From Thermococcus alcaliphilus (GTDB lineage: Archaea > Methanobacteriota_B > Thermococci > Thermococcales > Thermococcaceae), in NCBI RefSeq assembly GCF_024054535.1, contig NZ_JAMXLV010000022.1:62001-126000 (forward strand): a DNA stretch of 64,000 bases. Direction: 5' to 3'. The notes below the pieces were generated by a model. That model worked only from the letters and a program-made list of their open reading frames with translations, was not told the DNA's origin and did not search any database. Position 1 is the first letter of the stretch, and every line of letters starts with the position of its first letter. Below, in pieces: positions 19,696 through 39,552 of this stretch. The position numbers and the translations under genes are program-made.

Positions 19696-19739
19696 TGGTA
19701 GCCCCGCGGGGATTCGAACCCCGGTCGCGGGATCCAGAG
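19696..19739. repeat. attL: 44-bp copy of the tRNA-Gln 3' part
   Basis: Starts TGGTAGCCCCGCGGGG and ends GGATCCAGAG; covers CCA, acceptor 3' strand, T arm, variable region and the anticodon arm up to the anticodon loop on the minus strand. The 5' half of the tRNA is absent here, so this copy is not a functional tRNA. The identical partner is 39477-39520. Confidence 0.95.
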
Positions 19740-20695
19740 CCCCCCTCAACAACCTCTCCAACCTCAATTTCGAGAAAAAAGGCACGAACACCCTCCCCGA
19801 ATACGTACAGGTGACCAGACCCCACTACATGCTAAGCCAAGAACACGTGAAATTACTCTTCCTGTCTCTCGAAAGCAAGGGAATAACAAAAGACTTCCTT
19901 TCAAGAATCAGATTGATCACCAAACAATTCCTAAACAGCCTGGAAAAACATGAAAACTACTACATAGTGACAGCCGACAACCTTCTCGCCCACCTAAACA
20001 AAATAAAAGAAACTTACAGCCACGAATACTACCGAAAACACGTGGTTTACATCAAAAAGCTTCTGAGAATCGCCAATATCCCCCTAGCCGAACTCATAGG
20101 AACTAAAAAACGACCAAACCCAGACAAAACCATAGTGACAATTCAAGACATAAAAGAATTCCTTCAAACTCTCAAAAAACTCCACGAACAAGGGAGATTA
20201 CTCGAAGAATCCTATGATCGACTGATGATGGCAACAATTGTATGTGCAGTTACAGGAATGAGAGTCTCAGAGTTCACCCGAATCAAAGTCAAAAACATAA
20301 ACCTTGAGGAAAGAAGTATCCACCTACCTTCAAACATAACAAAAACACATCAAGAAAGAACCACGTTTTTCACAGAAGAAGCCAGAGACGTTTTAAAAAA
20401 GTTCATAAAAAGCTACGACCTCAAAGAAGAAGACAACCTAGCAACCATTCCCCAACTCCAACGACCCTTCAAACAAAAGAAAGAGCTCAAAACCCTAAAA
20501 CTAAGACTAAAACATATGAGGAAATTCTTCTCACAAGAATGGGACAGGAGAAACGGAAACACAACAGTTAAAAAACTTCTTATGGGACATTCCCTTCTGA
20601 ACGATATTAACACCCTCCACTACTCCCACCACACCAAGGAAGACCTAAAAAACATTTATGAAAAAATTATGGGGGACATCAAATTCCTCTCCTAA
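19697..20695 (+). CDS. SSV-type integrase, C-terminal catalytic half (split by integration)
   Basis: Tyrosine recombinase catalytic part. Reading frame is open through attL (GSPAGIRTPVAGSR) into APLNNLSNLNFEKKG and the core. Catalytic set: Arg in VTGMRVSEFTRI, Lys region NITKTHQERTTFF, KHMRKFFSQEWDRR, then MGHSLLNDINTLHYS with the candidate Tyr nucleophile. Joined with 39295-39520 it makes about 393 residues. In the integrated state it lacks its start; GTG 19811 is the first plausible internal start. The coding strand is unusually C/A-rich. Excision needs intact integrase from another source or a free copy. Confidence 0.9.
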   Translation, partial: GSPAGIRTPVAGSRAPLNNLSNLNFEKKGTNTLPEYVQVTRPHYMLSQEHVKLLFLSLESKGITKDFLSRIRLITKQFLNSLEKHENYYIVTADNLLAHLNKIKETYSHEYYRKHVVYIKKLLRIANIPLAELIGTKKRPNPDKTIVTIQDIKEFLQTLKKLHEQGRLLEESYDRLMMATIVCAVTGMRVSEFTRIKVKNINLEERSIHLPSNITKTHQERTTFFTEEARDVLKKFIKSYDLKEEDNLATIPQLQRPFKQKKELKTLKLRLKHMRKFFSQEWDRRNGNTTVKKLLMGHSLLNDINTLHYSHHTKEDLKNIYEKIMGDIKFLS

Positions 20696-20733: not shown

Positions 20734-22026
20734 CTAGTTAACCCAATCAAAATTAAAAAATGGGGATCCCCCATAAGGGAACCCCCCATCTTTACGGTAT
20801 CTCGCTCCAATGAATCCTCTGTCACGAGAAGAATTTGAGCCTTTCGTTGACTCATTATCCATACCACAGAGACGCCTCTGTTCCTTTGTGAGAACCTGGA
20901 CGTCTGCATAAATCTCATCATAAACCTCCTTAAGTTCTTTTTCAGATTTGTTGGCATAGTGGAGGCTGTGGACGTCACTTAGTGAATGCCCCATGATCTG
21001 CCTTTTGACGATCTCATAAACACCCAAACCCAATCCTCTCTTGCTCCCTCTTTTTTTCATTACCCTACGATCCCACTCTTCAGCAAAGAACTTTCTCAGA
21101 TATGCAATTTCAAAATTCTCACTGCACTCGCTCAACTTGAATTTCAGCCTATCCCTGTAGTTGTTCATGATCCTATTGACAAAAATCGTCGAAATGTCTT
21201 TTTTACCCTGGCTGATAAAGAGATACCCACCATTTGCTTGAATACGTTCATCATACTTTTTGATGAAATACTTTAAGAATGCTTGAGCCTCTTTAGTCAA
21301 GAAACTGACCTCATACCCCTCTGTTACTCTTAAGAGTCTGCCCTCCTTGGTTTCATTCACTGGAAACTTGACTATGCCGTTTTCAAGGTCAATCCAATCA
21401 ACTTTTATTCTCGCTACTTCCTCTTTCCTCCGTCCCGTCGAAACCATCAAGAGCAAGAAAGCAAGCATCCTCTCGTATTTCCATGTTGAAAGCTTCCTCT
21501 TACGGTGAAGGTCTTCCACTTCCTTAAACAGCCTCCTAACGTCCTCAATAGTTACAATTTTCTTTGTTACCCTTCTTTCAAAGATTAAACTTCTTTTTAA
21601 CTGTCTTAGCTCCCTATCGAAAAGAGAATCGAACTCATTGATGCCCAGAGCTCTCAAAAATTTTTTCACGTACCTTAATCGCTTGATCATGGAACTGGTG
21701 GAATATCCAGCCTTCTTTAGTGCAACGATGTACTTTTGTACTTTCTCCGAGCTAACCTGGTAAGCTCCAGACCTTGGAATGCCAGGACTAGTCCCCTTTT
21801 TGGGGAACTTTCCACTTTCAAGAAACATCAAAAACTCGTACAACCATTTTTTAACCTTTCTGAAAGTGTCTTCAGACACGTCAACCTCGTGGTAATCCTT
21901 CAGGAATCGCTCGACGTCGCTCTTCTCAATCACGTGTACCTCTCCCGAAAGATAGGAATCACGAGCTTTCCCCTTCACGATTACCCCCCCATCATACCTA
22001 TTGGCAAAGTTACCCGAGCCCCTCAT
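20734..22026 (-). CDS. Second tyrosine recombinase/integrase (complete)
   Basis: About 430 residues. SAM-like N-terminal DNA-binding region (about 100-170: VSSEKVQKYIVALKKAGYST), then a catalytic domain with Arg in VSTGRRKEEVARIKVDW, AYLRKFFAEEWDRRV and RQIMGHSLSDVHSLHYAN (Tyr). It is clearly related to the split integrase (same RKFFxxEWDRR and GHSLxDxxxLHY blocks) but is not interrupted and has a C-terminal extension of about 50 residues rich in Gly/Ser/Arg. ATG 22026 is preferred: TATTTAAACC lies about 35-40 bp upstream. Convergent with intC, gap 38 bp. Confidence 0.88.
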   Translation of the reverse strand: MRGSGNFANRYDGGVIVKGKARDSYLSGEVHVIEKSDVERFLKDYHEVDVSEDTFRKVKKWLYEFLMFLESGKFPKKGTSPGIPRSGAYQVSSEKVQKYIVALKKAGYSTSSMIKRLRYVKKFLRALGINEFDSLFDRELRQLKRSLIFERRVTKKIVTIEDVRRLFKEVEDLHRKRKLSTWKYERMLAFLLLMVSTGRRKEEVARIKVDWIDLENGIVKFPVNETKEGRLLRVTEGYEVSFLTKEAQAFLKYFIKKYDERIQANGGYLFISQGKKDISTIFVNRIMNNYRDRLKFKLSECSENFEIAYLRKFFAEEWDRRVMKKRGSKRGLGLGVYEIVKRQIMGHSLSDVHSLHYANKSEKELKEVYDEIYADVQVLTKEQRRLCGMDNESTKGSNSSRDRGFIGARYRKDGGFPYGGSPFFNFDWVN

Positions 22027-22137
22027 GGAGGTCGGGCTATTGATGTATTTTATTTTGGGGTTTAAATACTTGGTGCTGGTTAAGGGCTGATTTTTCAATA
22101 AACAGCAAACACTCATCAATCGAAAAAATGTGCGAAA

Positions 22138-23352
22138 TTAAACCAGTGGGAAAGCAAAAAGCAGTGGAATCCTTTCGGAGAACCCACTGAGTATCCTACC
22201 CTCAAAGAACGGCTCTTCGCTGATCACATAATAAACAGCCCTGTCCCCAAACATCTCAACAGCCCTATCAAGATACTCCTCATCAAACAAAATCACCAAA
22301 GTATCCCTACCCTCCTCAAGCGAGATGTTCCCCGTGAACGAAAGCTCACTCCTAGTCTTCAGCAACAATTCAATAGTCCGCTTGAAAACCCTAACATAAT
22401 CCACACTCCTCTCCACCCACACGTCGTACACACCATCAGAGACGAAAGTTATCCTCCCAGTGTTCCCAGCTGCAATGGTGGCGGTAACGGCGGCAATTTC
22501 ATCCCGATAAAACCTGAAATCAACGGGGAGACTGAGATGCTTCTTCCCCTCAGGAGTATTGAAGATAACAACATTCCAATCCTTTTTCTCTGGGTCGTTT
22601 GCTATCTTCTTGAGCAAGTGGTTAAGCCCCCATGCTAACCCTCCAAGAACTGGAGCGGCTTTTCTTCTGTCGAATTCGCCCTTTCCAGCCCTCTTTGCTA
22701 TTGCCGAGAAGTGGAGTGCGAGGGTCATTGGTGGGATGTCAAGGTTTTCGACGATTACTGGATCGGCGAAGAATACTGAGAGGGCCTCAAGAGTGCTCTT
22801 GTACTTGATGTCGTTCAAGTGGGTGAGCACGTGCATGAGTAGGGGCTTGTATTGGTATGTTCTTATTAGCATGTATGCAGTGTTGTCTGGGTCGTTGTCG
22901 TTTAGGAGTATTTGGTTGGCTAGGGTTACTCCCAAGTGTTTTTCGAGGTATTCTTCAACTTCGCTTGGGGCTGAGTAGTATGAGTAAAGTTCGGTTTTTG
23001 TGCGGGGCATTTCTTTGATTAGTTTTTTGAGTGTTGGGATGTATTGGTTTGGTTCTTCTTTGTGGATTTTGTGGTGGATTTCGATGAAGTTTATCACGTC
23101 TCCTAAGTGCATGATTGTGTTTGGTGCGAGTTTTTTGAATTCTTCTGGGGTTGGTTTTGTTGCGGCTAGTGCTGTTAGTGCGAAGATTCTTGAGAGGTGT
23201 TTTTGCCTTATTATTCTCAAGAATTCTGCTTTTTCTTCGAGCGATATTGGCCCGAAGGCTCTTTTGATTTCTTCGATGTACTCTTCAGTGTATTTCTTTT
23301 TGAATGAGAGCATGTCTTGCAGATAAACTTGACAAAAATTTTCCATCCTCAC
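22138..23352 (-). CDS. Unknown element protein, 404 residues, two-composition gene
   Basis: No family recognised. N-terminal half is helical and charged (SLEEKAEFLRIIRQKHLSRI); later parts contain GGLAWGLNHLLKKIANDPEK and a beta-rich C-terminal region (DTLVILFDEEYLDRAVEMFG). No membrane segments. GTG 23352 (GGGGGGT 6 nt upstream) or ATG 23346 could be the start. The coding strand is C/A-rich in the first 740 bp and G/T-rich in the last 450 bp, the switch falling near 22,600. Confidence 0.65.
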   Translation of the reverse strand: MRMENFCQVYLQDMLSFKKKYTEEYIEEIKRAFGPISLEEKAEFLRIIRQKHLSRIFALTALAATKPTPEEFKKLAPNTIMHLGDVINFIEIHHKIHKEEPNQYIPTLKKLIKEMPRTKTELYSYYSAPSEVEEYLEKHLGVTLANQILLNDNDPDNTAYMLIRTYQYKPLLMHVLTHLNDIKYKSTLEALSVFFADPVIVENLDIPPMTLALHFSAIAKRAGKGEFDRRKAAPVLGGLAWGLNHLLKKIANDPEKKDWNVVIFNTPEGKKHLSLPVDFRFYRDEIAAVTATIAAGNTGRITFVSDGVYDVWVERSVDYVRVFKRTIELLLKTRSELSFTGNISLEEGRDTLVILFDEEYLDRAVEMFGDRAVYYVISEEPFFEGRILSGFSERIPLLFAFPLV

Positions 23353-23523: not shown

Positions 23524-24450
23524 ATGACGCTTACAAAAGGTGAGGTTAAAGTCTTAACACACATTAAGGGTGGGAAGACACTAAAAGAACTTTCAAATGA
23601 GTTGGGATTATCAAAGGGGTATCTTTCCACAATACTACACTCCCTTGAAAGGAAGGGCCTTGTAGTATTTGAAGGGAAAAAGCCTCTCATCATAAAGCCT
23701 GCCGAAAATAAGGTAATGATCATATTTCGGCTTGTTCAAAAGTCATTTTCTTATCTTCCTCTTGATGAATTGCTCTCTGGGGGGAATCTTAAAGTTCTCT
23801 CAGCTCTTAAGGTTGAAACCCCCCAGCCATTATGGTTACTTCTTTTGAGGGCAAATGTAAGCAGAGCAACACTTTATCGGGCATTGAAAGAACTCAGGGA
23901 GAGACTTATTGTAGGAAAACGAGAAGAAGGTTACTTCTTAGTGGAGCGTTTTGCCCCACTTAAAACCTTTGCTGACGAGTACTTTTATCTTCAGAACTCG
24001 ATGAAGGCAATGGAATTCGATCCAAATGCGACTCTCGTATGGAGTGGTGTTGAAGAGATGATTTTGGCGACAACAACCTTTAAAGGGAAGAGTGTTGATG
24101 GCTTTCAACTTACGGGTTTAGCACGTTTTTCGGATTATGGCATCCCTCTGATTTCCTCGGGAATTTACCATTACTATTGGCCAGCTGAAGAGTTAAGTCT
24201 TGAGGATGTTGTCGTCCACACTCTTGTGAGTCTTTATGGCGCAAGAGAGCTACTTTATGTAATTGTTCTTCTTAAAACCCACCCTTTTGATAAGAAAAAA
24301 CTCCAAATGCTCGCTACCAAGTTTGAAGTGATAAACACTCTCAATGATATTCTCGAATATCTCGCTGGAAAAAAGAAAGCATATCCATTCCCCTCGGAAG
24401 AGGAAGTGAAAGAGTTGTGTAATCAATATTTTGGAGGGTGTGAAGAATGA
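23524..24450 (+). CDS. Winged-helix regulator, AbiEi-like putative antitoxin
   Basis: Protein of 308 residues with two winged-helix regions: residues 1-60 (LKELSNELGLSKGYLSTILH) and about 85-140 (LWLLLLRANVSRATLYRALK), followed by an alpha/beta region (VWSGVEEMILATTTFKGKSV). A DNA-binding protein overlapping a nucleotidyltransferase by 4 bp is the arrangement of AbiE-type toxin-antitoxin systems, where AbiEi represses the operon and neutralises AbiEii. Family membership is inferred from context and architecture, not from a close match. Confidence 0.7.
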   Translation: MTLTKGEVKVLTHIKGGKTLKELSNELGLSKGYLSTILHSLERKGLVVFEGKKPLIIKPAENKVMIIFRLVQKSFSYLPLDELLSGGNLKVLSALKVETPQPLWLLLLRANVSRATLYRALKELRERLIVGKREEGYFLVERFAPLKTFADEYFYLQNSMKAMEFDPNATLVWSGVEEMILATTTFKGKSVDGFQLTGLARFSDYGIPLISSGIYHYYWPAEELSLEDVVVHTLVSLYGARELLYVIVLLKTHPFDKKKLQMLATKFEVINTLNDILEYLAGKKKAYPFPSEEEVKELCNQYFGGCEE

Positions 24451-25172
24451 TAACAAGGGAAAGACTGGTTGAAGAGTTTCGTGCACTTGACGAAAAAGCA
24501 ATGCTTATGGGCTCTGATGTGGTAAGATTGTACTTAATTGGTGGTGGCAATCTTGCCTTGAGAGGTCTTAAAGAAGCAACTGCAGATATTGATGTAGTAG
24601 TTGAGAATCTTAACTTGCTGAAAAAGTTTGAGAGCATTCTTACTAATCCTTCTCCTCAATTAAAAACAAGTAGGGGTTTAATTATTTATGTGAAAGTTGC
24701 AGAGCATGAGTATGAGAAAAAACTAGGAGCTTATTCGGTTTACAGGAAGCTTGATCCTCAGATGGAAGATTTTAATCTTGATGTTTTTGTTAAAAGAGTT
24801 ATGAGAGGAATAATTCTGACTGAAAGTATGAAGAAACGGTCAATAATTCCAAAAGAGTTCCAGGATTTAAATAAAATCCGAGTTTACTTGATTTCTCTTG
24901 AAGATCTCTTTTTGTTTAAGGGAGTAACATCAATTGGCCGTTCGAAAGACGTTGATGATCTCATAAGATTGATTGAGGTGGGTGTGGATTTTAATGTTAT
25001 TCTCGAAGAACTAAACATTCAAAAGGATTTAATTGGTAAGGAAAGGTTTGAATTGCTTGTTAATCTTTTAATGGAGAAAATGGTCAGTATTAGGGAGATT
25101 CTTGGTGTAAGAGGATTGAGGAGTTCGGGATTGGAGAAGTTTATTATTTCTCTTGAAGAACTTATGAGGTAA
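24447..25172 (+). CDS. Nucleotidyltransferase-fold protein, AbiEii-like putative toxin
   Basis: Protein of 241 residues. The N-terminal segment LIGGGNLALRGLKEATADID carries the nucleotidyltransferase-beta hallmark (GG-N8-10-DxD, here ADIDVVV); a third acidic position may be in DFNLDVFVKRV. SLEDLFLFKGVTSIGRSKDV and DDLIRLIE resemble the conserved KxxA/RxKDxxD motif of DUF1814/DUF6036 and AbiEii proteins. Likely transfers nucleotides to RNA or protein if active. ATGA overlap with the upstream regulator. Confidence 0.75.
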   Translation: MITRERLVEEFRALDEKAMLMGSDVVRLYLIGGGNLALRGLKEATADIDVVVENLNLLKKFESILTNPSPQLKTSRGLIIYVKVAEHEYEKKLGAYSVYRKLDPQMEDFNLDVFVKRVMRGIILTESMKKRSIIPKEFQDLNKIRVYLISLEDLFLFKGVTSIGRSKDVDDLIRLIEVGVDFNVILEELNIQKDLIGKERFELLVNLLMEKMVSIREILGVRGLRSSGLEKFIISLEELMR

Positions 25173-25863: not shown

Positions 25864-27846
25864 TCAGCGTGAAATCCTGAAGGTGACTGTGTACAGGAAC
25901 AACGACATCAACAGCAGGCCGAGAAATGATTCAACAGCCACTAATATTTGCGGGACATGACTAATCAAGTTTGGCTGAATGTTGGCGTATCCTAGGCTTG
26001 TGAAGGTGATAACACTATGGTAAAAATAATCAATCCAATCTGCTGGGACTGGTTTCCCATTAACAAGTTTAACAATTCCATTAGTACTCTTAAACAAAAA
26101 TGCAAACAACGTTATCGTGATTAAAGAAGCTATTAACGGCCTTTCAACCTTAATCCCGTATCCCGTAAGCGTTTTCATCAAAAACCAATCGTAAAGGACA
26201 GCGCGGATCTTGCTTCCCCATCCTTTTGTGAGCCTGAGTTTTCTCCTAACTTCATTCCTGCGATAGTGCATCTGAAGAGCCTCTTCGAACTTCCCCTGCT
26301 TAATGTAAAAGTAGTAAAGCTTGTTGTAAACTTCGTAAGAAGCCTCATAAAGTTTCTGAAGGTTTTCGGGAGTGTTTTCATAAAGAATATCCTTCCCCTC
26401 TTTAATGAGAGAGATGACTTTCAAATCTTCAATATCGGCTGAAGATCCTTTTTCTTTCTTGAAATTTTTGATGAAATAATTCAAAGCATTCTTCAATCGC
26501 CTTGTGTATTTTTTCTTTTCAAGCAGATGTCTATCGGGGTTCATAATGAAGCCCTCATATGGGTCAAAAATAGCAACTTTTTCTCCATTGGTAACATAAT
26601 AAAAGAGTCCTCTTTCTGTGAGTTCGTTTGCTAGTTTCTCATTTACATCCTGAAGTTTTTCCAAACTGATGACTTTTTTCATTTTTACAAACTCTGCAAC
26701 TATCTCATTAATCTCCATAAAGGTATCTTTGTTGAAGAGGACAGCATCTCTTAAGGTGGGCGTTTGATCAACATAGGAATTGTGAAGATTAGTGTATTCA
26801 AGGCTTGCCCTGGTAAAGTTTGTGGCTGGGCTAACTAACACAGCATGAAGGTTAGCATATTCAAGACGTGTGTCTTCAAGATTAGCATATTCAAGACGTG
26901 CTCCCTCAAGATCGGCATGTTCAAGATGTGCAGATTTAAGATTAGCATTTTCGAGGTGAGCCATATTAAGATCAGCACGCTCAAGACTTGCGTTGGGAAG
27001 AATAGCATTTTTAAGACTTGCCTTGATAAGGTTGGCATTTTTAAGATTTGCCCACCAAAGATTAGCATGTTCGAGGTTGGCGCTATTGAGATTAGCATTT
27101 TCAAGATTTGAACCTCCAAGATCGGCATTTTTAAGATTTGCCTTGCGAAAATCAGCATGCTTAAGATCCGCAACACGAAGATCGGCATTTTCAAGATTTG
27201 CTTCAGTAAGATTAGCATTTTTAAAACTGGTCTCCGTAAGATTAGCATGTTCAAGGTGAGCCCAACTAAGATTAGCACCATCAAGCTCTGCACCACTAAG
27301 ATTAGTATTTTCAAGATGTGCAGATTTAAGATTAGCATTTTCAAGATTTGCTTCAGTAAGATTAGCATGCTTAAGATGAGCCCAACTAAGATTAGCATGT
27401 TCAAGGTAAGCTTCTTCAAGATCGGCATCGTTAAGATCTGCCACACGAAAATCAGCATATTCAAGATCTGCACCATTAAGAATAGCATGTTCGAGGATTG
27501 CCTTGAGAAAAGTAGCATTTTTAAGATTTGCCCAGCTAAGATCCGCATTTTCAAGATTTGAACCTTCAAGATCAGCATTTTTAAGATTTGCCTCAGTAAG
27601 ATCGGCATTTTTAAGATTTGCCATAACAAGATAAGCGCGTTCAAGGTGAACTTCTTCAAGATCAGCCTCCTTAAGGTAAATCCCCATAATCCGATAGTTT
27701 TTTAGCTCTTTTATTTGTTCTTCACTTGGTGTTTTTCCATCTTCTGGTTTGTGCCAGTAACAGTACTCTTCTCCAGGCAGAGCTTCAAGGGGGCATTCCC
27801 ATTCCTCGCCATTTTCAAGCTTCATCTTAAACTTGCACTTTGACAT
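25864..27846 (-). CDS. Pentapeptide-repeat protein fused to a two-TM ion channel
   Basis: Protein of about 660 residues. N-terminal zinc-binding-like segment (CPLEALPGEEYCYWH), then roughly 300 residues of pentapeptide repeats A(N/D)LxX forming a right-handed beta-helix, a helical region, and a C-terminal pore module: RPLIASLITITLFAFLF, a P-loop SVITFTSLGYANIQPN that replaces the potassium filter TxGYG by TSLGYA, and a second membrane helix. Probably a cation channel with a cytoplasmic beta-helix; ion selectivity is uncertain. ATG 27846 is chosen because GGTGGGGATGAA precedes it. The repeats also create a highly repetitive DNA tract. Confidence 0.85.
   Translation of the reverse strand: MSKCKFKMKLENGEEWECPLEALPGEEYCYWHKPEDGKTPSEEQIKELKNYRIMGIYLKEADLEEVHLERAYLVMANLKNADLTEANLKNADLEGSNLENADLSWANLKNATFLKAILEHAILNGADLEYADFRVADLNDADLEEAYLEHANLSWAHLKHANLTEANLENANLKSAHLENTNLSGAELDGANLSWAHLEHANLTETSFKNANLTEANLENADLRVADLKHADFRKANLKNADLGGSNLENANLNSANLEHANLWWANLKNANLIKASLKNAILPNASLERADLNMAHLENANLKSAHLEHADLEGARLEYANLEDTRLEYANLHAVLVSPATNFTRASLEYTNLHNSYVDQTPTLRDAVLFNKDTFMEINEIVAEFVKMKKVISLEKLQDVNEKLANELTERGLFYYVTNGEKVAIFDPYEGFIMNPDRHLLEKKKYTRRLKNALNYFIKNFKKEKGSSADIEDLKVISLIKEGKDILYENTPENLQKLYEASYEVYNKLYYFYIKQGKFEEALQMHYRRNEVRRKLRLTKGWGSKIRAVLYDWFLMKTLTGYGIKVERPLIASLITITLFAFLFKSTNGIVKLVNGKPVPADWIDYFYHSVITFTSLGYANIQPNLISHVPQILVAVESFLGLLLMSLFLYTVTFRISR
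26840..27660 (-). repeat. Coding tandem repeat (15-bp unit) of the pentapeptide domain
   Basis: The plus strand shows variants of AAGATTAGCATTTTC every 15 or 30 bp, interleaved with TTTGC/TGTGC codons. The periodicity follows the five-residue protein repeat and nucleotide identity between distant copies is high, which suggests recent expansion or gene conversion. Confidence 0.8.
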
Positions 27847-27970
27847 TTCATCCCCACCATTGGGTAAGCCACAACTTATCAAAAATTGGTTATTCATGAT
27901 TTTAACCTTTTTGTGATTAAGCATAATGCTTTTGACTAATAGCAGTTTAACCTACTTATGGGAGGCACTT

Positions 27971-28889: not shown

Positions 28890-29321
28890 ATGACGTACTG
28901 GCTCTGCATAACAAATAGGGATAACTGGAAAGTTATTAAGGAGAAGAACGTTTGGGGAGTTCCAAAGAGGCACAAGAATACTATTGCAAAGGTTAAGCCT
29001 GGCGATAAGCTTGTAATTTATGTGAAGCAGGAGAGGAAAGATAAGCAAATCCTCGAGCCTAAGATCGTTGGAATTTTTGAAGTCGTAAGTGAGCCCTATG
29101 AGGATTCAACGAGAATTTTCAAAAGCCCTCCTCACTTAAACGAGACTTATCCCTTGAGGGTCAAAATCAAGCCGATGAAACTTGGCGAGGTTGAGTTCAA
29201 GCCATTAATTCCAAAACTAAAGTTCATCACAAACAAGAAGAAGTGGAGCGGGCACTTAATGGGAAAAGCAATGAGGGAAATTCCAGAAGAAGATTACAAG
29301 CTCATTGAAAACATGTTGTGA
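28890..29321 (+). CDS. EVE domain protein (UPF0310)
   Basis: Protein of 143 residues. N-terminal [20 protein letters not shown], central [12 protein letters not shown], and C-terminal [20 protein letters not shown] are those of EVE/UPF0310 proteins, a PUA-related fold that binds modified bases in DNA or RNA. EVE domains are common in restriction and defence contexts, which fits a mobile element. The start is preceded by GGTGAACCCGC. Confidence 0.85.
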
Positions 29322-30490: not shown

Positions 30491-30534
30491 ACTCTTGTTG
30501 ATTTTTGTCGTTCATTCAATTAATTATCATGATT

Positions 30535-30572
30535 GTTGCAATTTCGTGCAACTAATTTTATTCTTATGCAAC
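30535..30572. promoter_or_regulatory. TGCAAC half-sites upstream of MCM
   Basis: GTTGCA (30535-30540) and TGCAAC (30547-30552) form a 6-bp inverted repeat with a 6-bp spacer; a third TGCAAC begins 20 bp later at 30567. The sites sit 27-64 bp before the MCM start and could be an operator or part of the origin. Confidence 0.5.
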
Positions 30573-30598
30573 TGACCAGTATGCATGGGGGGTACAAC

Positions 30599-33172
30599 AT
30601 GACACTCGTGAAATTCAACTCAAAAAAAGGAGAAACGGATGTAATGAATGGGGGGATACCCCCTACTGAGTACGGTGCAAATTTTCACCCAGTGCACCAT
30701 AAGCTGGTTATTGAAAATGAAGATAGGAGAAGTTCACCAAACCAAAAGGTGCAGAATGGTGCAGAGTTTTTGGAAATTGTGCAGGAATATGAAGACTTTA
30801 AAAGAGTCATTGATAAACTGTATTCAGGACTTCCTCTGAAGAAGAAGTATGAGGTCCTACCGATAATAGCTCTCTTGCTCACTGATCAACCTCTTACTAA
30901 GGAAGAAGTGAAGTCAAGGATTTCAGATTTGATCATTGACTTTCAGTTACCATACCACGAAGGGACAATCAGAAACTCATTGTCAATTCTTTCAAGAAAA
31001 GAAATGAGCAATTTTATCCGAGAAATTAACGAGCTTGGGATCAAAAGATATGAGTTAATTCCCAAAGTCAAGAATTATTTGATCAGACTCCTTATGAATA
31101 AGAGTAACGAACAGCAACCAAGCGATGGAAACTTACTCACACTTGCTGAAGAATTCTTTAAGAGAGTAGTTAATGAGGATGGACATAAGGGTTACGTTGA
31201 ACAACTGAAAGAGAATATTGTAATTAAGGGCAAGAAAGAGTTGATTATTGATTATGAAGACCTGGTATCATATGCCCCAGAACTTGCTGAAAAACTCATC
31301 GATACCCCAGAGAACATTTTAAGCGTACTAAAAGAAGGATTAAAAGTTGTTTTTGATGAAGAGCTCCCAGGGGTTAAATTTCCAGATGTTGAAGTGAGAG
31401 TCAGAAACTTGATTAAAACCCTAAAACCAGCGGAAATTGACTTTAAAAAGTTTAATGAGAAGTTTATCCAAGTTAAGGGCATTGTTGGGATGATATCACA
31501 GCCCGAACCGTTTATCACAAAGGCAAAGTTCGTTTGTAGGAAATGTGGTTATGAGATGATAGTTCCTCAAAAATATCACTACGATTACTTATTAAAACCC
31601 GAAGAATGCTTGGCGTGTAGCTCGAAAGACATCATGCTCGATAAAGCTGAATCGGACTATGAAAACTTCCAAATATTGAGAGTTCAAGACCCTCCAGATG
31701 AACTTAAACCTGGAGAATCTCCAAAATTCTTGGAGGTGATTTTAACTGGGGACTTAATTGATAGCACAACCCCTGGTGACCAGATTCTCGTTACTGGAGT
31801 TTTAAAAATGATACAGCACAAAAACGAACGAGATCAAAAACAAAAACCAGTTTTAATAGCAAATTACATTGAGTCCTTCAGAAAAAATATTGAAGAAATC
31901 GAGCTTTCAAAAGAAGATGTTGAAAGGATTGTCAAGGAAGCTAAGAGAGAGGATTTTGTGGAGAGATTAATTGATAGCATTGCACCTGAGTTAGTTGGAG
32001 AACAAATGAGGATGGTCAAAAAGGGAATACTGCTGTCCCTACTTGGGAGCAGTCCCTTGAGGATAAAAGGCAAAGTGAAGAGGAGCAATATTCATATTCT
32101 TATCATTGGAGATCCAGGTCTTGGGAAAAGTGAACTGCTTAACCGTATTGCTGAAATTGCCCCGAGAGCTGTTGTTGCAAGTGCAGAGGGGGTCTCAAAG
32201 GCGGGATTTACTGCTGCAGTTGTTTATGATGAGCTAGCCAGACGATGGGTTGTTGAAGCTGGTGTAATGGTTCTTGCTGATGGGGGCTATGCTCTGCTGG
32301 ATGAGCTTGAGAAGATGAACGATGAAGATAGGAGCGCTATTCATAGGGCCATGGAACAAGGAGTTGTCGAGATCCACAAGGCAGGTGTTAATGCCACTTT
32401 GAGGGCAAATGCCACTGTTATTGCGGTTGCGAATCCTCAATATGGTGTCTGGAACTTTAACAAGCCTTTAATTGAGCAGATTCCATTACCACCTACACTT
32501 TTGGACCGTTTCGATTTGATATTCCCCCTAATAACAATCACTGAGGTTAAAGAGAGGGAAAAATTGTTGAAGGAGATTTATGGATCAATGATAGGTCAAA
32601 ATAACCAAGAGAGTAACTATTATGATGCTGAGTTTATCAGAAAATTCATTGTTTATGCGAGAAAAACCGTGAACCCTGTTTTGAGTGAAGAAACGTTCAA
32701 AAAACTATTGGAGTATGATAAAACTCTGTTTAAGAGGCTTAAAAAGGTGGGTGGTAGTTTAAAGCTCCCGATAAGTTTCCGACAGTTCGAATCTCTCATT
32801 AGGCTGAGTTTAGCTCATGCGAGACTGAACTTAAGGGAGAAAACTACTGAGGAGGATGCTAAAGCGGCAATTGAACTTTATGAATGGTGTTTCAGGAGAC
32901 TAGTACCAGAAGAAGAGCTTGATGTGCTTGTCATCACACATGGGAAGAGTACAGAGATGTTGGCCTTGGAGAATAAAGTAATGGAGCTGGTGAAGCTTCT
33001 CGACACTGGAGAAGGAGTTCGAGAAGACGAGGTAGTTGAGGAGATTGTGAGAGAAACTTCTGAATTCTCGAAGAGGGAAATCAAGGATGTCTTTGACAGA
33101 TTGCATAGTGAGGGGAAGCTAAGCTTTTTGGGATTTAGGGGCAGTGTACGGTGGTGGAAAGCGAGAGAATAA
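30599..33172 (+). CDS. mcm: Divergent MCM replicative helicase of the element
   Basis: MCM-family AAA+ helicase of 857 residues from ATG 30599, 5 nt after GGGGGGT. N-terminal region has a helical/winged-helix-like extension absent from ordinary MCM (about 70-170), then the OB region with zinc ribbon CRKCGYEM...CLACSS. AAA+ motifs: Walker A GDPGLGKSELLNRIAEIAPR, Walker B GGYALLDELEKM, sensor region VIAVANPQYG, arginine finger LLDRFDLIF. The C-terminus ends in a winged helix (EFSKREIKDVFDRLHSEGKL). Expected to unwind the element's own DNA; the adjacent iterons support a self-replicating module. Confidence 0.95.
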   Translation: MTLVKFNSKKGETDVMNGGIPPTEYGANFHPVHHKLVIENEDRRSSPNQKVQNGAEFLEIVQEYEDFKRVIDKLYSGLPLKKKYEVLPIIALLLTDQPLTKEEVKSRISDLIIDFQLPYHEGTIRNSLSILSRKEMSNFIREINELGIKRYELIPKVKNYLIRLLMNKSNEQQPSDGNLLTLAEEFFKRVVNEDGHKGYVEQLKENIVIKGKKELIIDYEDLVSYAPELAEKLIDTPENILSVLKEGLKVVFDEELPGVKFPDVEVRVRNLIKTLKPAEIDFKKFNEKFIQVKGIVGMISQPEPFITKAKFVCRKCGYEMIVPQKYHYDYLLKPEECLACSSKDIMLDKAESDYENFQILRVQDPPDELKPGESPKFLEVILTGDLIDSTTPGDQILVTGVLKMIQHKNERDQKQKPVLIANYIESFRKNIEEIELSKEDVERIVKEAKREDFVERLIDSIAPELVGEQMRMVKKGILLSLLGSSPLRIKGKVKRSNIHILIIGDPGLGKSELLNRIAEIAPRAVVASAEGVSKAGFTAAVVYDELARRWVVEAGVMVLADGGYALLDELEKMNDEDRSAIHRAMEQGVVEIHKAGVNATLRANATVIAVANPQYGVWNFNKPLIEQIPLPPTLLDRFDLIFPLITITEVKEREKLLKEIYGSMIGQNNQESNYYDAEFIRKFIVYARKTVNPVLSEETFKKLLEYDKTLFKRLKKVGGSLKLPISFRQFESLIRLSLAHARLNLREKTTEEDAKAAIELYEWCFRRLVPEEELDVLVITHGKSTEMLALENKVMELVKLLDTGEGVREDEVVEEIVRETSEFSKREIKDVFDRLHSEGKLSFLGFRGSVRWWKARE

Positions 33173-33349: not shown

Positions 33350-33775
33350 ATGAAGTTGATTAACAAAAAAGAGATCCCAGCTGATTTAGCAATAAAAGAA
33401 GTCATTAACGACTTATTGAAGGTCTTTCTTATGAATCCCTACATAAAACGACCTCACATTTTGGTAAGAGGAAGAGAAAAGCTATTTATTCTTGACAGGA
33501 CTTGGTATGTTCTCCAAGAGGTCGTCGAAATTCTTGCCAACAAACGGATCCAAATTAAAGAATATTATGGGGAAGTTAATGAAATTCCAGGGTTGAACGA
33601 TAAATATGAGAGTTTTAAGGTTTCTGGAAACGAAGCGAGAAAATTCAGTCAAAGAGAACTCGAAAAGCTATTTAAAGAGTGTTTAAAATCCAACGGAGCC
33701 ATAATTAGCTTAAAAACTGAAGAGCAAGAGGCCATTATCTTCATTCCCATTCGAAAAGACTTGGAATGGATTTAA
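33350..33775 (+). CDS. Unknown element protein, 141 residues
   Basis: Basic soluble protein without recognised domain. N-terminal half contains YIKRPHILVRGREKLFILDR; C-terminal half ends in SLKTEEQEAIIFIPIRKDLE. CTTGGAGAT lies just before the ATG. The 177 bp between it and mcm holds no gene; a CCTTTAAAGG palindrome is at 33183-33192. Confidence 0.6.
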   Translation: MKLINKKEIPADLAIKEVINDLLKVFLMNPYIKRPHILVRGREKLFILDRTWYVLQEVVEILANKRIQIKEYYGEVNEIPGLNDKYESFKVSGNEARKFSQRELEKLFKECLKSNGAIISLKTEEQEAIIFIPIRKDLEWI

Positions 33776-35552: not shown

Positions 35553-36188
35553 TCACAGGATTATTTCTTTTCCCGTCAGCTCGTTGTTGATGGATTTCAC
35601 AACTGCTAGCCTAATCTTGCCTTCCGTTCTTTTCACTCGGAATACTGTGGTTGCAAGCTCTTCGAGGAACGGCAGGGGATTGAATTCGGGTCCCTCCAAA
35701 ATGTCCTTATTTACAAAGTGAAACGCGATCCTTCTTTTGTCTCCCAGGTGAGAAAGAACTGCATTTATCGAGATTAGCAGATCCCTTTTTGAGTCTGTGA
35801 GGAATAATGTTTTTTCAAACCCTAAAACTGGGTTTACAACTTTCCCCTGCTCAAAAAAAGAATTGGCAACTTTTGCATACTCTCTTTCTTGAATCAAAGG
35901 CTCCTTCAGGGGGACTCTCCCTACAACATTTCCCACATTCCTCACTCCACCCAATTTGATGACTAAAACATTGTTCAAAATCTCGGTGTCAATGCCTCCA
36001 AGCTCCATGTGCTGAGCGTAAATGTAAAGCGTGTCCAGAACATCATCAATGAGCACGGGGTAGTTCTTCTCCCCAGCCCAACTTACAATGGCAGCTAACA
36101 GGTTTACAGGGGTGGTAAGGGAGTTATGCTCAATGAGCGCTGTCTCGCCAAACTTTAACTTATCAAGCAATGAGGCTAATGTCTCCAC
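35553..36188 (-). CDS. DUF257 family protein
   Basis: Soluble protein of about 211 residues, Thermococcales family DUF257 (ASLLDKLKFGETALIEHNSL, VLIDDVLDTLYIYAQHMELG, GFEKTLFLTDSKRDLLISIN). Its fold resembles RecA/KaiC-type ATPases without a clear Walker A. GTG 36188 is chosen because GGTGAT lies 4 nt upstream; ATG 36194 overlaps that site. The frame is open to 36368 but that part lies across a TATA-like AAATATTTG and is unlikely to be translated. DUF835 and DUF257 genes converge here. Confidence 0.8.
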   Translation of the reverse strand: METLASLLDKLKFGETALIEHNSLTTPVNLLAAIVSWAGEKNYPVLIDDVLDTLYIYAQHMELGGIDTEILNNVLVIKLGGVRNVGNVVGRVPLKEPLIQEREYAKVANSFFEQGKVVNPVLGFEKTLFLTDSKRDLLISINAVLSHLGDKRRIAFHFVNKDILEGPEFNPLPFLEELATTVFRVKRTEGKIRLAVVKSINNELTGKEIIL

Positions 36189-36423
36189 TGCCATCACCTT
36201 ATTTACAAGACATAGTTTAAACAAATATTTAAGATTTTTGTTCATAATCCTGATAAAACTCTCAAAAATTAGTATTCCATCATAGCTTTTGTTTTTTGGA
36301 CATTTTCTTAGTGGGAGTTGCTTTAATTCTTCTGAAAGCTTGTCCTTCATAGTGAGACTGAAGTCCAACTTTCAGCTATCTTTAATATGTAAGAATGTTT
36401 GATATTGTTGATGGGTGGTACTC

Positions 36424-36771
36424 GTGAAGTTGGATGACTATTACCTAATTTACGACGTCCGCGGGGATGCCCAAAAATCCAGGGAGTACATAAAAGTTAG
36501 GGTTTACAGTACAGAGGAATTAAAGAGATTGGTCAAAAGAAGGAAGATGGAGAGCGTACAGGATTATTACGGGGCACAGCTTATTGTTTTCCGCTTAACC
36601 CAGCTTCTTGCAAACAAAAAACGCTGTGGTGATGCAATGTTTCTGGTCAATGCGAACTATTGTAGGGAGGTCGGAGTGTTCACAAATGGAAGGAACTTTA
36701 TCGTGGCAGTTCCAATTTTTGAGGGGAGGGAGGTTAAAAAGACTCTCATACAGCTTTTGGAGTTTGTTTAA
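36424..36771 (+). CDS. Unknown protein next to Argonaute, 115 residues
   Basis: Basic protein without recognised family (LDDYYLIYDVRGDAQKSREY, VKRRKMESVQDYYGAQLIVF). GTG 36424 follows GGGTGGTACTC; GTG 36415 is also in frame. It converges with and overlaps the argonaute gene by 4 bp, and is divergent from DUF257, so it is not obviously co-transcribed with either. Confidence 0.6.
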   Translation: MKLDDYYLIYDVRGDAQKSREYIKVRVYSTEELKRLVKRRKMESVQDYYGAQLIVFRLTQLLANKKRCGDAMFLVNANYCREVGVFTNGRNFIVAVPIFEGREVKKTLIQLLEFV

Positions 36772-39140
36772 GTGACAAAAAATAACGCATTTTCAATGGC
36801 CACCCGACTAATCTCGAATTTCCTTACGAAGTTTGAACATTTATGAGCAAAGTGAGCTGGGGCAGGAAGAGATATCACGGCATCCAAGTATGTGGTGTAA
36901 TTAAGTCTTTGCAAATAAATCAAATAATGGAGAAGATTCCTAGGAAGAGTCTCAGGACCTTTGATGTAACCGTCCTTTGAGTAGTAATATCCTCTCACTG
37001 TGTATGGCCTTGCGTAAGATGTACCTTTTTGAGTATTCATTCCTTTATGACCTAAGACGACATACTGGGTAAGATTGCCAGAAGGTAGGGAGGTGTAACT
37101 AGGGAGAAACTTTTTATGTTTCCATATTCGTATTCCTGTATCCTTTATTATTTCAACCCCATTAAGTGTTACACCTGATTTTCCAAATTCCTCAAATATC
37201 CCTGATTCGAGGATTGTTGAGAGATCTTCTCTCTCAGAAATAGTAAAGAACCCATCTCTTGCCAGAAGAATACCAATTTCTTCAGAATTCCTATTTTTTA
37301 GTTCTTTTTTGACCTGAGGAGCACTAAATAACTCTTGAAAGACTTCAAATAGGTTTACAGTTTCTTTATTGTTTGTGTTTTGAGAAATCGCAAATCCTCC
37401 TTTGGGAATGCCATTCGGAGTCATTAATACCACACTAGCAGCTACTCCTCTTTGGGTTGCTTCATACTGCCTTGTTACATCAATGCCCAAAATAAGGTCA
37501 TACTTTGGAGATATTACTTCAGGATTTAAGGAATACATGTAAACTCCTAGCTTTGGTGCAGTTTGAAGAAGAGCTGAATAGCTCTTGTAATTATCATCCA
37601 ACCCACTTTCGTTTATTCCTTGAATTGCAACTCTTAAGTTAGGCTTTTTAAGGAGATACGACCTCATTTTATGAAATTTTACAATGTTTTTATCTTTAGG
37701 TAAGAGTGTTAAAAGCAAAAATGTATCACTTTGATCCTTCTTCATACTTTCAAAATCTTCAATAATTTTTTCTGAATACTTATCAAGAGCCGAAGTTGTC
37801 TGTAGTTCCTTCCATACTCCTTTTTCCAAGGGCCTGTCAACTATTTCAGCACCATTTGTGAATGCTTTTCCATAAACACCCTCCTTCAAGCTCAAAACAC
37901 GTTTGTAAAATATTGATCGTTTGAGTTTTCTTTCCAAATGCTCGGGGTAATAAATGAGAATCTTTAAACTTCCTTTGTGATTTACAAAAGGAATAAGATC
38001 TTCCCTAAATGTCCCTTTAGTTAAAAGCAATCCTCTTACACCCCAGCCAAATATGGGGCCTTTTTCTGTTTGTGCCATAAGGATATTTTTGATCTCTGGC
38101 AGTCTCATCACATGAGGAGACGTGCTTTTGAACTTCAAGACAAATTCTGCTTTTTTCACAGCATTAGCGTAATTTTTCACAACATCTTCTTCTTGTTTAT
38201 TAAATAAAATTGACTCAAGTTTCGGGTCAATTATTAATTCGCTATTTAATTCGGTAAAAATAAACAAATCTTGCAAGTATGAAGAAAATCTTGCTTGGTA
38301 TTTACTGAAACTACTTCTGGAATACTTGCTTTTTGGCACTGCTAGTATCACATACTTTGCGTCCAAGGGGCTTTTAGCAGGATTTAAAGATTTTATTGAT
38401 TCCTCAATTCTTAAATAGGCATTTCTTTCTTTGATTCTGGTGGAATTTTTCAGTTGGAGTAAGAAGTCATAAGCTTCTTTGTCTTTTAAGATTTTAACAA
38501 TGTATGAAAAAACGTTATTGCTCTTAATTTTAGGGCTTTTTATTTTTATTTCCTCTTCATTTTGAACATGCTCTTCAATCAGCGCCATAACTTGGTCAAG
38601 GCTTTTTTCTGGTAGTTCCCATAATTTTAGTGTTTCAGTTTCTGAAGAATATTTAATGGCAACATAAACAGTTTTTTCATTAAATCCAACAACTTTTATT
38701 TGTGGAGTTTTTATTCTTCTTATTCGCACTCCAATATCAGGATTTTCAAGAAAACCCTGTATTTTAGCAGAGTCCACGTAAACTTTGAGCTTCTTTCCAA
38801 GTATTTTCTTCACATAAGCAGACATTAGCGAGATGGCAGTTTTTTGAGGATATTTCGATATTTTAACAGGCAAAAGTGACATTGGTTGAAAATCCTTAAT
38901 CCTTGCTAAAAAGTTTAGCTTATCATAAAAGAAATAATAGTAGTACTCTCCATCTGAATACTTTATCAGGAGCTTTTTGTTCAATTCGTCTTTTAATTCT
39001 TCAGGAAGATGTTCATAAGCTTCTTTTTTGCTTGAATATGGATAAACTTCAAGTTGTAGGATTTCATGGCTTATGTCTTCGGGAAGCTCCAATACATTCC
39101 ATCCGTCCCATCGAAACCAGAAATTTGTATCCATCTTCAT
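36768..39140 (-). CDS. Prokaryotic Argonaute with intact catalytic tetrad
   Basis: Long pAgo of 790 residues. PIWI catalytic residues by alignment of motifs: Asp554 (DLILGIDVTRQ), Glu593 (NNKETVN), Asp629 (LLARDGFF) and His763 (LPAPAHFAHKCSNF), a complete DEDH set, so target cleavage is expected. N, PAZ-like and MID regions are long enough to be present; MID shows KMRSYLLKKPNLRVAIQGI. The C-terminus ends in aliphatic/aromatic residues (ENALFFVT), which insert near the 5' phosphate of the guide in other Argonautes. It resembles P. furiosus Ago at the C-terminus but is otherwise divergent. Single gene; it lies about 150 bp from intN. A+T-rich. Confidence 0.93.
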   Translation of the reverse strand: MKMDTNFWFRWDGWNVLELPEDISHEILQLEVYPYSSKKEAYEHLPEELKDELNKKLLIKYSDGEYYYYFFYDKLNFLARIKDFQPMSLLPVKISKYPQKTAISLMSAYVKKILGKKLKVYVDSAKIQGFLENPDIGVRIRRIKTPQIKVVGFNEKTVYVAIKYSSETETLKLWELPEKSLDQVMALIEEHVQNEEEIKIKSPKIKSNNVFSYIVKILKDKEAYDFLLQLKNSTRIKERNAYLRIEESIKSLNPAKSPLDAKYVILAVPKSKYSRSSFSKYQARFSSYLQDLFIFTELNSELIIDPKLESILFNKQEEDVVKNYANAVKKAEFVLKFKSTSPHVMRLPEIKNILMAQTEKGPIFGWGVRGLLLTKGTFREDLIPFVNHKGSLKILIYYPEHLERKLKRSIFYKRVLSLKEGVYGKAFTNGAEIVDRPLEKGVWKELQTTSALDKYSEKIIEDFESMKKDQSDTFLLLTLLPKDKNIVKFHKMRSYLLKKPNLRVAIQGINESGLDDNYKSYSALLQTAPKLGVYMYSLNPEVISPKYDLILGIDVTRQYEATQRGVAASVVLMTPNGIPKGGFAISQNTNNKETVNLFEVFQELFSAPQVKKELKNRNSEEIGILLARDGFFTISEREDLSTILESGIFEEFGKSGVTLNGVEIIKDTGIRIWKHKKFLPSYTSLPSGNLTQYVVLGHKGMNTQKGTSYARPYTVRGYYYSKDGYIKGPETLPRNLLHYLIYLQRLNYTTYLDAVISLPAPAHFAHKCSNFVRKFEISRVAIENALFFVT

Positions 39141-39294: not shown

Positions 39295-39520
39295 ATGAGT
39301 CGGGACGTGAATACGTATTTGAATACGTATTCTGTACACAGAAGAACATTGAAGCGGAAAGTAACTCTTTCTGTTCGTGCCGATTTGGTGGAAATGGCGA
39401 AGGAGAAGGGTATTAACATGTCCAAACTGCTTGAAGAGGCGTTAAAAGAGGAGTTGGGGGTCTGGAGCCTTGGATTTGGTAGCCCCGCGGGGATTCGAAC
39501 CCCGGTCGCGGGATCCAGAG
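39295..39520 (+). CDS. SSV-type integrase, N-terminal half (split by integration)
   Basis: MSRDVNTYLNTYSVHRRTLK followed by a ribbon-helix-helix-like segment (KVTLSVRADLVEMAKEKGIN, MSKLLEEALKEEL), then VWSLGFGSPAGIRTPVAGSR encoded by the att site itself. After 39520 the frame runs into the 5' part of the antisense tRNA and has no integrase content. GAGGTGCTTCG precedes the ATG and TTATTTAAG lies about 40 bp upstream. A direct repeat TTTCGTTAAT occurs twice upstream (near 39192 and 39219). Confidence 0.88.
39477..39520. repeat. attR: 44-bp repeat inside the complete tRNA-Gln
   Basis: Identical to 19696-19739. It forms the 3' part of the functional tRNA-Gln, so integration rebuilt the tRNA with element-derived sequence downstream of it. 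Confidence 0.95.
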
Positions 39521-39552
39521 TCCCGCATGCTTGGCCGCTACACCACGGGGCT
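39477..39552 (-). tRNA. tRNA-Gln (CUG)
   Basis: Complete cloverleaf on the minus strand: acceptor AGCCCCG/CGGGGCT, discriminator A, encoded CCA; anticodon loop CTCTGGA (CUG) on stem CGGGA/TCCCG; T arm CGGGGTTCGAATCCCCG. TATA box ATTTATAAAT (minus strand, near 39580-39589). Integration target of the element. Confidence 0.96.

Follow-up and report, generated by a model that had tools for sequence, protein, structure and literature searches.

The window, a 64,000-nucleotide stretch of Thermococcus alcaliphilus DNA, contains an integrated element of 19.8 kb that is bounded by a 48-bp direct repeat of tRNA-Gln, with copies 98% identical (Table 1). The Argonaute (Ago) gene is located near the tRNA end of the element, where the first-pass annotation had placed a long pAgo in a tRNA-borne element. 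Argonautes cleave nucleic acids that pair with a short guide. The assignment is sound: the open reading frame is intact (790 amino acids, no internal stop), its product matches Pfam Piwi at residues 477–774 (E 4e-8, above the gathering cut-off), and the gene lies between the att repeats. The protein also matches the PADLOC pAgo/PprPIWI models (E 7e-23) and is encoded by the sole PIWI gene of the host genome (G000; 1.89 Mb, 25 contigs). The gene starts 154 bp from int(N), close to the 150 bp or so first estimated, and its neighbours are, as described earlier, a small open reading frame (118 amino acids) and a DUF257 gene.

Table 1. Features of the element in the window
Feature	Position	Strand	Remarks
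attL, 48-bp copy of the tRNA-Gln 3′ part	19696..19743	.	
int(C), catalytic part of the split tyrosine integrase	19744..20695	+	annotated ORF 19811-20695
Second, unsplit tyrosine recombinase	20734..22119	-	homologue adjoins Ago in G086, 37% identity
404-aa protein	22138..23352	-	common to G081 and G076
Nucleotidyltransferase (DUF6036)	24447..25172	+	possible toxin-antitoxin member with TrmB-like gene 23524-24450
EVE-domain protein	28890..29321	+	the two other family elements have near-identical copies
MCM helicase, probable element replication protein	30533..33172	+	
141-aa protein	33350..33775	+	G086 has a homologue next to the second recombinase
DUF257 protein	35553..36368	-	
118-aa protein	36415..36771	+	overlaps Ago by 4 bp in convergent orientation; G086 and G089 elements have family members
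Argonaute gene, 790 aa	36768..39140	-	MID-PIWI residues ~460-789; tetrad D554/E593/D629/H766
int(N), N-terminal part of the split integrase, CcdA-like N-terminal segment	39295..39524	+	
attR, 48-bp repeat within tRNA-Gln	39477..39524	.	
tRNA-Gln (anticodon CTG), integration target, kept intact	39477..39552	-	

Alignment with PfAgo (Pyrococcus furiosus, PDB 8jpx/1u04) pairs its catalytic residues D558, E596, D628 and H745 with D554, E593, D629 and H766 of the window protein, and these four positions are invariant in all seven aligned Thermococcales Agos. The two aspartates and the glutamate had been named correctly in the first-pass annotation. The histidine it had chosen, H763, pairs with H742 of PfAgo and is not conserved in the homologue from genome G086; the correct residue is H766. 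Taken with the Piwi match, the alignment gives a PIWI domain with a DEDX tetrad, as in long-A pAgos. The pocket for the 5′ end of the guide in the MID domain is recognised by a YKQTNK-type motif, with Y/H/R, K/R/Y, Q and K at the positions concerned (PMC6299218). R493, Q507 and K530 of the window protein keep the basic pattern of this 5′-phosphate pocket, while the first position of the motif is F489; PfAgo and the T. thioreducens-type protein also have phenylalanine here.

The length of the protein fits the presence of N and PAZ domains. The N-terminal half gave no Pfam domain at E<1, and neither N nor PAZ was recognised. A single-sequence AlphaFold model had a pLDDT of 33, and a single-sequence search of solved structures gave no match. 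A profile built from three homologues matched only PfAgo among solved structures (profile residues ~467–778, E 3e-24). Profile–profile comparison with the other four Thermococcales Agos aligned residues ~460–789 only, with no match between the N-terminal ~460 residues and the N-PAZ part of those proteins, which bears out the original impression of a PfAgo-like C-terminus joined to a divergent N-terminal part. The N-terminal halves of the window protein and of the Ago of genome G050 do align with each other.

PIWI genes are found in 7 of 94 Thermococcales genomes, and this search was the sole source of homologues. Three of the genomes (G000, G050 and G086) carry the clade of the window protein, which is 42% identical to the G050 protein over the whole length and 25% identical to that of G086. 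In a MID-PIWI tree the three group together (support 100/99) on a long branch (1.5 changes per site), apart from the PfAgo/MjAgo/T. thioreducens-type proteins and from the G018/G026 pair; the tree comprises nine sequences, with long-B, short and eukaryotic Argonautes left out. PfAgo (1u04/8jpx) and the T. thioreducens-type Ago (8jsi) resemble the window protein in their DEDH tetrad, similar length, archaeal order and profile-level MID-PIWI homology. They differ in belonging outside its clade, in sharing only 24–28% identity over MID-PIWI, and in having no detectable homology to its N-terminal ~460 residues. The window Ago clusters apart from PfAgo and is not alignable with it along the full length, so it is not a PfAgo orthologue. 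Pattern scans of genome and viral contigs in public collections, and tblastn against plasmids and phages, revealed no close homologue. As judged from these comparisons, the window Ago is a member of a deeply divergent clade, so far confined to Thermococcales.

The two parts of the integrase, joined at the repeat, form one tyrosine integrase in frame. The att site thus lies inside the integrase gene, which is split on integration and has its frame restored on circularisation, as in SSV-type elements. A 516-bp query made of the joined flanks is found uninterrupted in six congeners (G077, 96%; G080, 89%; G084, G079, G078 and G083, 75–77%), and the site in these genomes is therefore empty. As expected for an SSV-type insertion, relatives lack both the window element and a second element in G086 at the corresponding tRNA gene. 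The gene was not found at the same place in relatives without the att repeats. The possibility that the Ago is a chromosomal host gene that happens to lie beside a tRNA was considered and is ruled out by the empty sites and by its position inside the repeats. At the same site, the fragmented assembly of genome G081 shows 3 kb from the left end of an element that is 97% identical; no Ago was found in this assembly, which is 79% complete. The start of int(N) (39295–39476) is CcdA-like (antitoxin-type, probably ribbon-helix-helix) and unlike the int(N) of G086.

The element further encodes a DUF835 protein and several genes of unknown function; no recognised defence system besides Ago was seen in it. 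A gene at 25864–27924 encodes a pentapeptide-repeat protein with a C-terminal ion-channel domain, and within the gene (26825–27705) a 30-bp DNA repeat that codes for the repeats recurs about 25 times; its relatives fall in PHROGs families of unknown function. DNA matches to the EVE gene (about 70–90% identity) occur in most Thermococcales genomes, sometimes in several copies. The gene, present in all three elements of the family, is apparently mobile in its own right.

The second Ago-bearing element, in G086, is 34 kb long and lies between a 47-bp tRNA-Gln fragment (1628239–1628285) and the tRNA (1662257–1662332). Its int(N) and int(C) likewise join in frame, and its joined flanks are uninterrupted, marking an empty site, in G092 (96%), G091 (90%) and G087 (84%). 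The Ago homologue is 3.5 kb from the tRNA, near int(N), and adjoins the homologue of the second recombinase of the window element. The two elements have in common the integrase (46%), the EVE protein (91%), the second recombinase and two small-protein families. Carriage by a mobile element, as claimed in the first-pass annotation, is thus strongly supported by the att repeats, the in-frame split integrase, the empty sites in relatives and this related element with a homologous Ago.

The G086 element also carries defence genes, namely an HMA-like set (helicase, methylase, ATPase) and AbiEi/AbiEii. It further contains a NurA-HerA-Mre11-Rad50 set (L014:6956-14255 = G086:C1:1646956-1654255); the genes of this DNA end-processing set were named by sequence recognition, with a search for Mre11 alone. 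Six congeners lack the element's Mre11 at E<1e-60, and the other Mre11-like protein of the host, encoded elsewhere in G086, is 34% identical to it. Both observations leave the idea of a host core operon unsupported. The first-pass statement that no helicase or nuclease partner adjoins the Ago is right for the immediate neighbours in the window but does not extend to the G086 element, in which this set lies a few genes away.

A sibling element is present at the same tRNA-Gln in G089 (repeat of 47 bp, 98%). It resembles the G086 element in its integrase (96%), a wHTH-AAA gene (65%) and a 108-aa gene (87%), and also has AbiE, EVE and the second recombinase. It contains no Ago; the gap between second recombinase and int(N) is only ~190 bp. 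The integrase at its left end (L111:6046-7320 = G089:C3:358546-359820) is one intact open reading frame whose N-terminal part resembles the int(N) of the window, and the tRNA end has a further int(N), which may indicate tandem or chimeric integration. The second recombinase is broken into two overlapping open reading frames (L112:5705-6962 = G089:C3:378205-379462) and may be dead.

In G050, the Ago adjoins a type I restriction-modification operon and a wHTH-AAA gene that is 50–53% identical to those of the G086 and G089 elements. This ATPase family (L013:13959-15086, L082:7449-8534), Ago-linked in G050 and integrase-linked in the other two, is possibly the replication initiator of these elements. 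We do not count the G050 locus as a proven element: the contig ends 199 bp past the AAA gene, there is no tRNA on it, and a related integrase is absent from the genome.

Comparison of related elements for presence or absence of the gene, as proposed initially, therefore finds a homologue in the G086 element and none in the G089 sibling, and for this reason we regard the Ago as optional cargo. Element DNA makes up ~1–2% of each genome, and under random placement both Agos would lie inside elements with a probability of ~2e-4; a chance association is unlikely. From gene content, the Ago is a recurrent, optional cargo among defence genes in this tRNA-Gln element family, with a clade membership of three and a neighbour association that rests on few cases.

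The mode of integration is that of the SSV-type ('suicidal') elements of Thermococcales, pTN3/TKV4 and the pT26-2 family, in which insertion into a tRNA gene splits an integrase with att inside the gene and some members of which encode an MCM helicase (PMC6972569, PMC8371274). The window element shares all three features with them. Unlike them it carries an Argonaute, and its target, tRNA-Gln, is not in the pT26-2 table. By description, it has no obvious resemblance to the seven core genes of pT26-2, a set with transmembrane proteins and a transfer ATPase (PMC6972569). PF16795 marks the integrases of the pTN3-like, pT26-2-like and SSV families (PMC8371274). Window int(C) matches PF00589, with PF16795 not listed at E<0.01, which suggests a suicidal-integrase mode outside those named families. 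No match to int(C), the second recombinase or the 404-aa protein was found in the plasmid collection. The PfAgo-like genes of G071/G072 and the G018/G026 group lie, on inspection, among ordinary chromosomal genes, with no integrase in the listed open reading frames. With AbiE, HMA or restriction-modification genes around it on integrative elements, the Ago resembles the 'guns for hire' class of mobile defence genes, from which it differs in being a predicted catalytic long Argonaute borne by an archaeal element with a suicidal integrase. The papers searched describe neither the clade nor an Argonaute carried by elements of this sort. Nucleases of the PfAgo type and defence genes borne by mobile elements are both familiar; new here are the way they are combined, the reappearance of that combination in a second element, and an unrelated N-terminal half.

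Our preferred reading, to which we give a probability of roughly 0.6, is that the gene encodes a full-length, catalytically equipped divergent pAgo that would serve as element-borne defence cargo, cutting competing DNA under the direction of guides for both element and host. The protein would be made continuously from the integrated state, its MID pocket would bind short guides, and it would cut matching DNA of multicopy invaders such as plasmids, viruses and rival elements. The host would thereby keep itself and the element. PfAgo, TtAgo and others have been reported to cut multicopy foreign DNA, with plasmids among the targets of PfAgo and its relatives (PMC6279821, PMC6299218). Retention of the tetrad despite the long branch of the clade favours a guide-directed nuclease. 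Among the roles suggested in the first-pass annotation, the best fit is competition between elements or defence, given the AbiE, HMA or type I restriction-modification genes present at the Ago-bearing loci; nothing singles out control of the element's own copy number or decatenation. Control of sibling elements is a possibility, and decatenation is less likely.

The main rival to general defence is a homology-directed exclusion of siblings, in which an Ago guided by the element's own DNA would cut homologous copies as they enter or replicate. Copy number would stay low, and a related element could not bring in an intact integrase able to excise the resident. The integrated element has a split integrase only, and elements of this kind are believed to excise with the help of a related, intact integrase supplied by a different element (PMC8371274); the idea is attractive because a sibling could provide this rescue. 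Related integrases occur in 16 of the 94 genomes, and both Ago genes are close to the integrase. The G089 sibling, however, manages without Ago, which makes the gene dispensable for element maintenance, and we consider this explanation unlikely, if worth keeping in mind.

The same distribution bears on whether the gene does anything for its carrier. An Ago of this clade accompanies the related integrase in only two of 16 genomes, and the gene is AT-rich (35% GC against 42–45% in the flanks), which suggests separate acquisition. Both would suit a passenger picked up with other accessory genes, of no benefit to the element and bound to be lost. Such a passenger would hardly be expected to keep an intact frame and an invariant tetrad across a very divergent clade, nor to appear twice in one element family near the same end when element DNA is so small a part of the genomes; we find it improbable.

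By analogy with TtAgo, for which a decatenation precedent in Thermus thermophilus is cited in PMC10269773, the protein might instead resolve linked chromosomes or element copies and so complete replication. The MCM helicase encoded by the element points to an element that probably replicates. The clade is rare and patchy (3/94 genomes), though, and the Ago is absent from the G089 element; a role of this kind seems very improbable.

A bolder proposal, which we hold doubtful, is that split-integrase elements have co-opted this Ago lineage for warfare between elements: homology-directed cutting of incoming siblings would block the excising integrase, guides in G086 might come from the element's own NurA-HerA-Mre11-Rad50 end-processing set, and it is to this role that the unrelated N-terminal half would be adapted.

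Discussion of archaeal Argonautes usually casts them as weapons of the host against mobile DNA. In the present case two related integrative elements each contain a member of one clade, a sibling that shares the insertion site has no Ago, and the site is empty in close relatives, so that whether a pAgo serves the cell or the element becomes directly testable. The hosts are near to Thermococcus species that are genetically tractable. With an N-terminal half that lacks recognisable homology, the protein is a candidate heat-stable nuclease in which guides may be handled by a different architecture.
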